DNA from: Paenibacillus terrae
GTDB taxonomy: Bacteria; Bacillota; Bacilli; Paenibacillales; Paenibacillaceae
Assembly (NCBI RefSeq): GCF_000943545.1
Contig: NZ_JTHP01000014.1
Coordinates: forward strand, 1 to 64,000
Reading direction: 5' to 3'
DNA length: 64,000 bases
The position numbers were made by a program, and so were the translations under genes. The notes beneath the pieces are model-generated. The model searched no databases, had not been told where the DNA came from, and saw only the letters and a list, made by a program, of their open reading frames with translations. Positions 46,187 to 53,590 of this stretch are shown here, in pieces (positions within the stretch are counted from its first letter, which is position 1; each line of letters begins with the position of its first letter).

Positions 46187-46255
46187 TTATGAATTGCGGG
46201 GAAGCACTCCCAGGGTGAAAAGTTTCTCATTCAGTTCTTTGGTGATCTTATTCAT
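46187..46255 (-). CDS. 22-residue frame coupled to the synthase stop
   Basis: ATG at 46253-46255 overlaps the synthase TGA (ATGA), giving MNKITKELNEKLFTLGVLPR plus two residues, followed by the terminator. Either a true coupled peptide or, more likely, the last residues of a large downstream NRPS gene, whose body has been deleted. No ribosome-binding site of its own. Too short for family assignment. Confidence 0.35.
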   Translation of the reverse strand: MNKITKELNEKLFTLGVLPRNS

Positions 46256-49200
46256 TGAGAGTCACTTCGTTCCGAGACAGAGGCAAACCAGAGCTGCTTT
46301 TGATCCGGAGTCAGCGCAATAACGGTTTCTGGAACGCCCACTGCTTCAGCCTCTGGAGGTACGGTTACAGGTACAGGTTGCTTGCCCGGACCCGGGCCGT
46401 TTCCATTCGGGGGCGGGTCCGGTAAAAATCCCCCTTTGCGCAGCTCGTTCACGCTATCCTTGACCGCTTGTACGATTCGCGCAATATCTTCCTCCGTATG
46501 GGCAGTGGACAAGAAACAGTTTCGTCCCTCCCAGATATAGATGCCTTTTTCCAGCATGTGATAAAAGAACAATTCCAGATCGCCTTTGATCACAAAGCGG
46601 AACAAGGAGCCAAAGTGAACGACCTTCATAGGTACGTGTTCGTTCGTAAAATAGCTGTTTAGCTCCGCTGCTAACGCCGAGGTGCGGCTGTTCAGGCGAT
46701 TTTGCAGCTGCTCGCCGTTGTGCTCCAAATGATCCAGCACCGCTAAGGATGCAGCCATTGCCAGCGGATGATGGCAGAAGGTTCCCGCGACAAAGGTCCG
46801 CTGCTGCTCATGCTGTGGATAGGAATCGTCCCCGAAGCTCCACGTACCTCCGTCGATCCCGTTCATAAAAGCGGCTTTCCCGGCTACGATGCCGATCGGC
46901 AGCCCGCCGCCAATGATTTTACCGTAAGTCACAAGGTCGGCTTGCACACCAAACCAGGCTTGGGCCCCTCCCGGCTGAATCCGGAAGCCTGTTATGACTT
47001 CATCAAAAATGAAGGCAGTACCTGACTGCTCCGTCATCTGGCGAATGTCCTGCAAAAAGGCTTGAGGCTGAAAATCTGGTCGGCGGCTTTGCACCGGCTC
47101 CACGACAACCGCAGCCAGCTCATGCGCATGGGTGCGGATATAATCCAGGGAATCGTCCGCTCCATAATGAAGCACGACGATATCGTCCACCATATGCTGC
47201 AGGATACCTGGAGCCAGAGGTGTCGAATGCTCCTTGTTGTCACCCGCGCTCCCCAGTGCCAGCACGCCGTCGAATGTACCGTGATATGAGCCGGCAAAAA
47301 TGACGACTTTAGCCCGTCCCGTAGCAGCACGCGCCAAACGGAGCGCGACCATGACGGCCTCAGTACCGGAATTGTACAGCGCAATCCGTTCCACGCCGGT
47401 CATCTTGCAAATTTTCTCGGCGACCTGTCCAGCCATGTTGGACATCGGGCCGACACACATACCGTTTTTCAGTTCTTCCTCAATTTTTTCACGAATAAAG
47501 GCCGGATTGTGTCCGAACAGATTCACGCCAAAGCCCATCGTCAAATCGACATATTCATTACCGTCCAGATCCCAAATTTTAGACCCGTCTGCACGTTGAG
47601 ATACAATTTGGTACACCATTTCCTTCAAAACAGGCCGGAAACCAGCCACATTGCGGTTATTGGCGTATACGGAGCGATACTGCTGGGTGTACTGTTTGGT
47701 GCTACGCGTACGAGCTGTGTAGCGTTCAATCAGCTCTTGCAGATGTTGTTCCTGACGGAGCGAAAGCAATTCACGTGCTTTGACATCCAGCTTTTTGTAG
47801 GGTGTAAACGACTTGGCTTCATTGCCTGTCTGCTTGGGAATAGCCTGAACGGATGGAGCGGGTGCTAATGCGGCCGCAACTTCCTGCTTGGATTCGGTAC
47901 GGATAATCTCCGCGCTTCCTCTACTTGCTAATGGCAAAACGCCAGATTCCGGGCTAAATGGCTCGGAGGCTATTACGGATGCAGATGGCTGATGCCGGAG
48001 AATATCAAGCTGCTGTGACATCAGATGTAGCTGTTGCTCCAAAATTCGCTCTACACCCGCAGGAGCTGTAGCGATTGGGAAACTTTGAGCTCGTGTTTTC
48101 CCAGCCGTATCTATACCATAAACAGATGCGGCAGCCGGAACGCCGGATTCATGAGACAGTTGGGTTAACGAGGATACTGCATGATCAGCCTGATTCAGAG
48201 TTGTTTCCGGACGATTTACCACAGACTGAACCGGGGTTTCAGCAGAAGTGGAAATGCTCACCCGCTCGGCTACGTAGCTGGCTAACAGCTCCAGCGTGGT
48301 CAACGATTCGAAAAATTCGCTCATCGGAACGTCCAGTCCGAAGGTATCCTTGATGCTGTGGCGAACCTGGGACAAATTAATGGAATCCAGCCCAAGCTCC
48401 AGAAAATGTGTTTGTGGCTCCAGTTCCTCCAGACTGAGCTGGGATACGTTACCGATCATTTTCGCTAACTTTTGAAGGATAGATGATTTGTGCTGATCGG
48501 TAACCGATGCTGACACCGAATACTCGTTCCCCATAATTCCAGTCTCCCTTACTGTTGAGTTTTCATGAACGGGTGCCTTCTGTTCCGTTCGAACCTGTTC
48601 GGGCACGTTAATCCAGCATCTTTTCCGTTCGAATGGATACGTAGGCAGAGAAACCTTTTTGTAGTGCTTACCTGCATATAGGGCACTCCAATTGATCTGC
48701 GCTCCCTGCACATACTTGGCAGCCAGTTGCTCCAGTGATTGCAACGTGTCCAAGCTTCCAGTGACCGTCTCTGCGCCACCTGTGCTATCCGCTTTCCCGG
48801 TGTATACACCTTCGACGGCTCTGCCTTGTTCGTGCAACTGAAGCACCTTTGCTTTCAGCGCATCCGTTCCTGCGGCAGTCACCGCAATCCGGTGATTCAG
48901 GTGGCTTCTGCCCGTGTTAGCCGTATAGCATACATCTTTCATCACGAGTTCTTCCGCCCGTCTGAACCGTTCTGCGTACCGCCCGACCAGCTCGCGCAAA
49001 GCGGATTCACTCCGCGCTGACAGAGTCAGCAGCAGCGGTGATGATCCATTGTTGCTGACCGTGGAGGTTTGATCCGATTCCGTCTTCGCTATATATTCCT
49101 CCAGCACCACATGGCAGTTTGTCCCGCTGAATCCAAAGGAACTCAACCCGCTTCTTCTCGGGAATCCGTCCGTTTTCCATTCCCTCAGCTTCGTATTGGC

Positions 49201-52386: not shown

Positions 52387-53590
52387 CCTGATCCCTCCTC
52401 AATTGCTCTAGCATTACTTTCTGCTCTCCTTCGGAAACCTGTTTGGTTTGCAACACCAGGCGAATACACCCCAGTATTTCCTGTCTTTGCTCAGAAGCAG
52501 GTGGTGGACTGCTGCCTGATTCTGAGTTTCGCAATAATTCTTCCAGTCTCCGGACAGGTAAAATAACACCCTTTAGATACTCATCTTCATTCCAATTGGC
52601 ATTGGGGGTAGACACCGCCAGTGACAGGGAAAGGGCAACCCAATCACGGATCGAGAAACGGCGTTCCAGTTCAACGCGATCCAAGTCTCTGTCCAGAGAC
52701 AGCACTTCGATGGTAGTGTTTATTTCCTTCGCCAAATTTTTCAGCACCGTTCGCGGACCTAACTCGATGCTCTGCTTCACGCCATGATTCGCCATGTACT
52801 GCATGGTTTGTATCCATCGAACCGGGTGAGTCATTTGCAAAATCAACCCTTGACGGATGCTATCGACATCAGAATATGGCTGAGCGGTCACATTGGAGAT
52901 CACGGGCCACTGTGCTTCATGGAAGGTGTATTTTTGCAGCTCAATGGCCAGCCTGTCCGCAGCATGCTGCATAAGCGGACTATGAAAAGGACCGCTGACC
53001 TGCAAGCGAGTAATTTGGGCCCCCCGCTGTTCTAACTTGCCAGCTACCACAGCTACCGACGCATGATGACCAGAGACGACATACTGATTGGGCGAATTGT
53101 AACAGGCAATGACAGCAGGCTGATCGACTGTGGAGTGCAGACGACAGAATTCTTCCACGACGTTCAACTCAGCTCCGCGAATGGCAATCATGCTGCCCAG
53201 ACCGGCCTCTGCTGCTGCTTCCATGAAGCGTCCCCGCTCTTGTACCAGTCGTAAAGCGTCGCCAAAGGATAGAACCCCGCTACTTACCAGAGCTGAATAT
53301 TCACCCAGGCTATGACCTGCTGAAAATTCTGGAATAATCCCGATTTCGTGCATATAACGTCGGAATGCAATGACGCTGATCGTAAGAAGTGCGGGCTGAG
53401 TATAGGATGTCCTGGATAATTGGGTGATTGGGCCTGCCATGCATAAAGCTTTCAGATCATATCCCAAAATATCAGCAGCCTCTTCAAACAAGTGATCCGC
53501 TTCTGTAAAATCGCTATGCCATGCGGCTCCCATTCCTGCATACTGAGATCCTTGTCCCGGAAAAACCAAAGCCATTCGATTCAAATTCAT
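52361..53590 (-). CDS. Malonyl-CoA:ACP transacylase (FenF/ItuD type)
   Basis: 409 residues from ATG 53590 (AAAGGGG upstream). FabD-type acyltransferase: VFPGQGSQYAGMG, nucleophile Ser in SAGHSLGEYSALV, QERGRFMEAAA, and His in VSGPFHSPLM. The last 100 residues are an added tail seen in FenF/ItuD proteins of iturin-family clusters. Its stop codon overlaps the synthase start by 26 bases, so translation is coupled; it loads the malonyl extender on ACP2 for the ketosynthase. Confidence 0.9.
   Translation of the reverse strand: MNLNRMALVFPGQGSQYAGMGAAWHSDFTEADHLFEEAADILGYDLKALCMAGPITQLSRTSYTQPALLTISVIAFRRYMHEIGIIPEFSAGHSLGEYSALVSSGVLSFGDALRLVQERGRFMEAAAEAGLGSMIAIRGAELNVVEEFCRLHSTVDQPAVIACYNSPNQYVVSGHHASVAVVAGKLEQRGAQITRLQVSGPFHSPLMQHAADRLAIELQKYTFHEAQWPVISNVTAQPYSDVDSIRQGLILQMTHPVRWIQTMQYMANHGVKQSIELGPRTVLKNLAKEINTTIEVLSLDRDLDRVELERRFSIRDWVALSLSLAVSTPNANWNEDEYLKGVILPVRRLEELLRNSESGSSPPPASEQRQEILGCIRLVLQTKQVSEGEQKVMLEQLRRDQDGAVSNFN

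Follow-up and report, generated by a model that had tools for sequence, protein, structure and literature searches.

A truncated iturin-type starter synthase in Paenibacillus and a candidate partner synthetase at a distant locus

The starter locus and its deletion scar

The DNA analysed here (the window, 64,000 nucleotides) comprises bases 1-64000 of contig 14 (98480 bases) from a 6.5-Mb Paenibacillus genome in 232 contigs. Its minus strand carries what remains of an iturin-type operon (Table 1): a gene for malonyl-CoA:acyl carrier protein (ACP) transacylase (MCAT) and, overlapping it by 26 nt, a gene for a protein with the domain order fatty acyl-AMP ligase (AL), ACP, ketosynthase (KS), ACP and aminotransferase (AMT). 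By this order and the adjacent MCAT gene the protein is an iturin-type synthetase subunit A, referred to below as the starter. It ends in ...ALTPDQKQLWFASVSERSDSQ and a stop codon, 20 residues into the first condensation domain (C1), and neither a condensation-adenylation-peptidyl carrier protein (C-A-PCP) module in the same polypeptide nor further nonribosomal peptide synthetase (NRPS) genes downstream are present. Comparison with related genomes suggests that this front half of an assembly line probably works in trans with a distant and probably paralogous NRPS. A sequence-only reading of the locus had described an MCAT gene overlapping a 2044-residue AL-ACP-KS-ACP-AMT protein that ends inside C1, with its active-site motifs preserved and a stop and terminator behind it; the open reading frames (ORFs), the Pfam matches and the sequence beyond the stop agree with this description.

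Domains were called with Pfam, which finds two carrier stretches in the starter, the best at residues 587-651, and no match in it to a Condensation or a thioesterase domain. All the motifs looked for in the starter and MCAT, which we take to be the active-site motifs so named, are present, and residues 1544-1993 match by sequence the PDB entries 6kfu and 6kfm (mycosubtilin synthase subunit A). From these motifs and the constraint described below, the product of the starter is predicted to be beta-amino fatty acyl. At E <= 1e-10 the AL domain is single-copy in each genome with the truncated gene, seven other matches across the four such genomes being 25-28% identical and lying within NRPS ORFs. 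The next genes on the same strand encode a protein without a Pfam match, an AMP-binding enzyme and an M29 peptidase.

Table 1. Features of the starter locus, in window coordinates
Feature	Position	Strand	Basis
Operon 5' leader, with homology to the partner NRPS leader	53591..54044	-	sequence match
24-base leader element GTRAAAACATTTTTGTTTTGCCAC	53619..53642	-	pattern search, <=3 mismatches
MCAT, first gene of the remaining operon	52361..53590	-	Pfam Acyl_transf_1 1.9e-34; motifs GHSLGE, PFHSPLM
Truncated iturin-type starter synthase AL-ACP-KS-ACP-AMT-(C1 stub), 2044 aa	46252..52386	-	ORF, Pfam
AL domain, residues 1-575	50662..52386	-	Pfam AMP-binding 13-414
ACP1, residues 587-651	50434..50628	-	Pfam PP-binding
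KS domain, residues 675-1047, Cys/His/His motifs present	49246..50364	-	Pfam and motifs
ACP2, residues 1296-1375	48262..48501	-	71-72% identity to N-terminal ACP of partner NRPS
AMT domain, residues 1593-1953	46528..47610	-	Pfam Aminotran_3
Stub of C1, residues 2025-2044, LTPDQKQLWFASVSERSDSQ	46255..46314	-	sequence
Deletion scar: stop codon and filler, C1 breakpoint to last codons of lost exporter gene	46205..46254 (right edge approximate)	-	locus comparison
Terminator-like hairpin and T-run after starter stop	about 46138-46173	-	read from sequence

When 119 relatives were searched with the starter protein, two forms of the gene emerged. In four genomes (G006, G032, G040 and G014) the starter, 89-96% identical, is part of a longer open frame (4219-4232 aa). 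The frames are short in G007 (2037 aa) and G066 (2035 aa), and G121 also has the short form; together with the window's own genome, G000, these make up the truncated set. G121, of the same species as the window, and G007 are complete, single-contig assemblies, and G066 is P. terrae PIC167. The reference for the size of the deletion is G006, P. terrae HPL-003, in which the starter is followed by the rest of subunit A, NRPS frames of 647, 960 and 1585 aa and a 425-aa homologue of a major facilitator superfamily (MFS) exporter. The 647- and 960-aa frames overlap and are probably one NRPS gene with a frame break in an otherwise intact cluster. Further NRPS frames number two in G032 and one in G040, each followed by a 421-aa MFS frame, and one in G014.

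Homology of the window to these clusters breaks off at CTCTCAAT, within the C1 motif, and resumes in the final codons of the MFS gene. Relative to G006, about 17.2 kb is missing, from C1 to the end of the MFS gene with the exporter included, and a filler was left behind. The loss of NRPS genes suggested by the sequence-only reading is thereby borne out and given endpoints, although its size had been put at more than 20 kb and it takes in the MFS gene. A 35-bp core of the filler (46218-46252) is identical in G000, G121, G007 and G066 and occurs solely at the scar; with up to three mismatches allowed, the setting of all pattern searches here, it was found neither in the other four of the eight genomes searched nor elsewhere in the truncated four. 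No source for the filler was found by blastn against the loci under comparison or by pattern search of the eight genomes, and the idea that it is the C-terminal tail of an NRPS found no support. A consensus terminator scan gave three other sites and not the hairpin after the starter stop. A terminator-like hairpin also follows the MFS gene in G006, G032 and G040; that of the window derives from the original cluster's end and now trails the C1 stub.

An assembly error or sequencing artefact would be a natural concern in a draft of 232 contigs, the more so as the relatives continue in frame. It is rejected, its probability being next to nil, since the identical scar is common to four assemblies, two of them (G121 and G007) of one contig each. 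Separate truncation in each strain is ruled out by the common junction and the tree, in which the truncated four form one clade with an ultrafast bootstrap (UFBoot) support of 100, or 75 once the database protein P0003 is added. P0003 is intact (3225 aa, 97% identical) and falls outside the truncated clade at a support of only 75-77.

A codon alignment of eight genes served to gauge selection on the starter by the ratio of nonsynonymous (N) to synonymous (S) rates (dN/dS), counted by NG86 and without a model test. All six pairs among the truncated four give 0.08-0.14, on 39N/132S (G007-G066) to 78N/188S (G121-G066), and six pairs of intact orthologues 0.11-0.14 overall. By domain the values are 0.05-0.15 for AL, 0.04-0.10 for KS and 0.03-0.08 for AMT, the last two having been singled out for this check by the sequence-only reading; on few changes, they are 0.00-0.21 for ACP1, 0.13-0.51 for ACP2, 0.21-0.74 for the linker and 0.14-1.05 for the tail. 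MCAT gives 0.16-0.20 between G000 or G121 and G007 or G066 (the G007 copy being partial), and 0.46 for G007-G066 on 6N/4S. The frame is open in all four genomes, AL, KS and AMT included, so that neither of the signs expected of a pseudogene, relaxed selection or frame breaks, was observed. The starter is under ordinary purifying selection without an NRPS in cis. Values this low since truncation imply that the enzyme is in use, and a neutral remnant is rejected for this gene.

A headless synthetase at a distant locus

The 119 relatives were also searched with an ACP-AMT piece from contig C7 of the window's genome. Three matches were limited to the ACP and the linker behind it, at G000:C80, G007:C1:3.058 Mb and G066:C16:647 kb, and each belongs to an NRPS, here called the partner. 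In a direct search of 14 genomes of our choosing the partner was present in 4/4 truncated genomes, in 0/5 with an intact gene of the starter family (G006, G040, G032, G014 and G036) and in 0/5 others. The loci share one neighbourhood, beside parE/parC-like genes; these names, like those of the drug-exporter-like and arabinose-isomerase-like neighbours, are presumed from the sequence. The partner site is empty in G032, G040 and G014, and G006 has another, related NRPS there. This NRPS (G006:C1:4984000-5000000, a very long ORF) has a start nearly identical to that of the second NRPS of the HPL-003 iturin-like cluster, and is apparently another rearranged copy.

The partner is translated from an ATG preceded by AAAGGAG, at the position that corresponds to ACP2. 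The order is then ACP2, linker, last AMT helix and full C1, the body of the AMT having been removed in frame, and the protein runs on from the exact point at which the window protein ends (ERNDSQSLHETALL in G000 and G007). The N-terminal ACP has retained its serine and shares 71-72% identity with ACP2; in the same comparison ACP1 and the first PCP of the partner reach 23% each. The protein is 5644 aa long in G007 and 4094 aa in G066. In G000 it is open over two contig pieces, C80 (1603 codons) and C111 (3827 codons), the ends of which match by eye apart from the last bases of C80. Long orthologues in the protein database are P0231 (5423 aa, 9 members), P0232 (5621 aa, 13 members) and P0233 (4094 aa).

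Module maps drawn from motif patterns give an ACP, a C-PCP unit lacking a complete A domain and three A-containing modules in G007, or two in G066; no thioesterase was found by motifs in the partner. Motifs and Pfam counts suggest that the first NRPS module of the G006 cluster, of contig C89 and of the partner locus retains, ahead of its PCP, no more of an A domain than the C-terminal part; such a module may be skipped or may receive its amino acid in trans. In G007, G066 and G121 the partner is followed by a 425-aa MFS gene. Starter and partner start at 2.751 and 3.058 Mb in G007, at 2.756 and 3.146 Mb in G121 and at 0.300 and 0.648 Mb of contig 16 in G066. The distance is thus about 300-390 kb in three genomes, and in G000 the two lie on separate contigs. 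The layout is that of a split lipopeptide system, in which a single genome carries its initiation and elongation genes far apart.

The two loci also share their leaders. The MCAT leader matches that of the partner in three colinear blocks, both in C80 (E 1e-13, 1e-8 and 2e-4) and in G007 (9e-10, 9e-10 and 5e-6); G066 shows a single block (1e-8), and none was reported ahead of the C7 gene. The 24-base element of Table 1 occurs exactly twice in each truncated genome, once before each locus, once in G006 and once in G032; it was not found in G040 or G014, and a reversed control pattern gave 0 occurrences in all eight genomes. A promoter-like TTGACT-17-TATTAT stands at 53975-54003, although with 2 such sites found against 3.5 in shuffles it is weak evidence by itself. 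Most simply, the partner locus would be a second copy of the cluster minus MCAT, AL-ACP-KS and AMT, the window locus having lost the rest; two paralogous clusters thus seem to have lost opposite halves.

The two loci as a possible assembly line

The description of the starter as an orphan is probably wrong, given a matching ACP-first NRPS in all truncated genomes. Loading onto a partner elsewhere, one of two outcomes the sequence-only reading had allowed, now has direct anatomical support in an AMT-less, ACP-first NRPS with a homologous leader in 4/4 genomes. The other, free release, keeps the status of a rival. The matching N-terminus of the partner is an ACP; no docking domain was identified.

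In the proposed line, AL would load a fatty acid on ACP1, KS would extend it once with malonyl placed by MCAT, and AMT, as in MycA (PMC3870968), would form the beta-amino acyl thioester on ACP2, from which the first C domain of the partner would take the chain directly in trans. Alternatively, KS would extend onto malonyl on the partner's own N-terminal ACP, with AMT aminating in trans; this route is possible because that ACP keeps its serine and resembles ACP2 so closely. As the partner has no AMT and that of the starter is strongly constrained, amination can be argued to occur on the starter. The few substitutions in the carriers cannot decide between the routes. The homologous leaders would allow joint expression of both loci. 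A fuller scenario, to which we give an even chance, is that two duplicated iturin-like clusters were pruned oppositely, one to a starter machine and the other to a peptide machine with its exporter, and that halves now 300-390 kb apart would form one line through a carrier-to-condensation hand-off, the starter in G000 perhaps feeding a second headless NRPS too.

Several observations weigh against cooperation of the two halves. The truncated four being one clade, the co-occurrence with the partner counts as one event and not four. No docking domain, as said, came to light. The partner is also less diverged than the loci compared with it between G000 and either G007 or G066: for G000-G007 its dS is 0.063 (C80) and 0.065 (C111), compared with 0.152 for the starter, 0.160 for an NRPS we take to be of the fusaricidin type, 0.175 for parC and 0.193 for parE, the gene after the starter giving 0.248 and the nearest partner-flanking gene 0.079. 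Between G000 and G066 the partner gives 0.060, the flanking gene 0.102, the starter 0.157, parC 0.179 and parE 0.186. In the G007-G066 pair the flanks come out in the opposite order, with 0.047 for the partner, 0.022 for the flanking gene, 0.025 for parE, 0.032 for parC and 0.100 for the starter. The MFS gene linked to the partner shows only 0.010-0.016 among G121, G007 and G066. Such unequal values mean that the two loci have no common clock; after the truncation, transfer or recombination probably took place.

Constraint on the partner is weaker as well, with dN/dS of 0.28-0.35 over the first 1600 codons, where its C1 gives 0.14-0.21 and, on few changes, its ACP 0.27-2.29 and its linker 0.44-1.13; C111 gives 0.17 for G000-G007. 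In G121 the partner carries three single-base indels, two of them within homopolymer runs. The same assembly shows 11354 + 2793 aa where seemingly the same NRPS is 14068 aa in G000, so the indels may be sequencing errors, as this suggests.

These indels, the raised dN/dS, the large deletions at both loci and the A-containing module fewer in G066 than in G007 would also fit two decaying cluster remnants with no present function. That is improbable in view of the low dN/dS and open frame of the starter in four genomes and of a partner that stays open over its full length in G007 and G066 and over both contig pieces in G000. A starter acting alone, whose beta-amino fatty acids would be cleaved off ACP2 by hydrolysis and then be used or secreted as free acids, with a functionally unrelated partner, is unlikely, if the least so of the alternatives. 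It would accord with the preserved motifs and strong constraint, with the docking region that was not seen and with partner copies exchanged in part separately from the starter. Yet the starter has no thioesterase match, and an ACP-first, AMT-less NRPS with a homologous leader in 4/4 genomes would be a coincidence.

The real client might instead be another ACP-first NRPS, the AMT-less one being secondary. In G000, contigs C7 (1-1027, minus strand) and C89 (1-15814, plus strand) abut exactly in frame to encode a second iturin-like NRPS, ACP-AMT-C-A-PCP, 2958 aa starting from the same ACP with a Shine-Dalgarno sequence and without AL-KS, and frames of 1552 and at least 1113 aa follow. Of a starter in cis it has kept only a decayed tail (L113:1590-2135, minus strand) 0.6-0.8 kb upstream, consisting of an AMT end and LTPDQRHFWFA-stop, and the terminator after this tail resembles that of the window (82.9% over 41 bp). 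A protein of equal length and type, P0134 (P. polymyxa), has 127 members. This alternative too is doubtful, a shade more so than free release, as the type is not matched in G007, G066 or G121 and cannot explain conservation in all four genomes. Cooperation of the starter with the AMT-less partner is therefore preferred.

Elsewhere in the window, 59288-62344 encodes a glycosyl hydrolase family 48 cellulase with a CBM3 domain.

Comparison with known systems

Mycosubtilin, iturin and bacillomycin are made by clusters in which synthetase subunit A (MycA/ItuA/BmyA) has the order AL-ACP-KS-ACP-AMT and an MCAT gene is its neighbour. The window shares this domain order, the adjacent MCAT and an AMT related to the solved one of MycA; it differs in that their proteins extend into C-A-PCP, whereas the starter stops within C1 and the NRPS genes are gone. 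The MycA AMT transfers the amine from glutamine to an ACP-bound beta-ketothioester, as stated in the available part of PMC3870968. The closest intact system is the 'iturin a synthetase a' of HPL-003 (P0124/G006), which is orthologous, has the same flanking genes and is 96% identical over the shared 2044 aa, but holds the 17.2 kb absent from the window. Excerpts of PMC4889004 predict an iturin- and paenilarvin-like product for P. polymyxa CCI-25. Paenilipoheptin was considered as the product and set aside, the architecture of PhnC/PhnD/PhnE (1, 1 and 5 modules in the portion of PMC11959601 at hand) being different.

A similar cut recurs in the genus. The P. peoriae starter P0004 (2030 aa, 73 members) ends in ...IPLTPDQRQFWFA (LTPDQRQFWFA), in the same C1 motif as the window starter. 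It branches apart from the group that window-type and intact genes form together (UFBoot 100 in a tree with outgroups) and was, most simply, cut independently; a placement among the intact genes appeared only in an unrooted tree (support 53) and was overturned with outgroups. The records include ACP-first NRPS proteins of both P. polymyxa and P. peoriae. P0134, P0135 (P. jamilae) and the partial P0061 and P0063 keep the AMT, and P0134/P0061-type NRPSs differ in this from the partner. The P0004-type starter and P0134-type NRPS genes are judged, only from the decayed tail on C7, to have once been adjacent.

Engineers of megasynthases seek natural points at which a polyketide synthase starter separates from an NRPS and still works. 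If the halves cooperate, the AMT-C1 border has been cut by nature at least twice in Paenibacillus, and duplicated clusters can divide labour by reciprocal loss. Genome mining that relies on self-contained clusters would then call both halves broken and miss the product.

No published account of a split iturin-type line in Paenibacillus was found among titles and abstract openings in open-licence PMC. Cluster mixing in cyanobacteria, as outlined in PMC12184294, is a parallel for recombined clusters and not for split ones. In Pseudomonas, split lipopeptide clusters whose initiation gene lies far from the rest are known (PMC9948697) from the viscosin, poaeamide, entolysin and xantholysin families, where the break falls between NRPS genes. 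In Paenibacillus, by contrast, a single protein is cut, at its AMT-C junction, and the halves overlap in ACP2. The Paenibacillus case is set apart by this cut within a protein, by the overlap of the halves and by opposite losses from two clusters that are seemingly paralogous.

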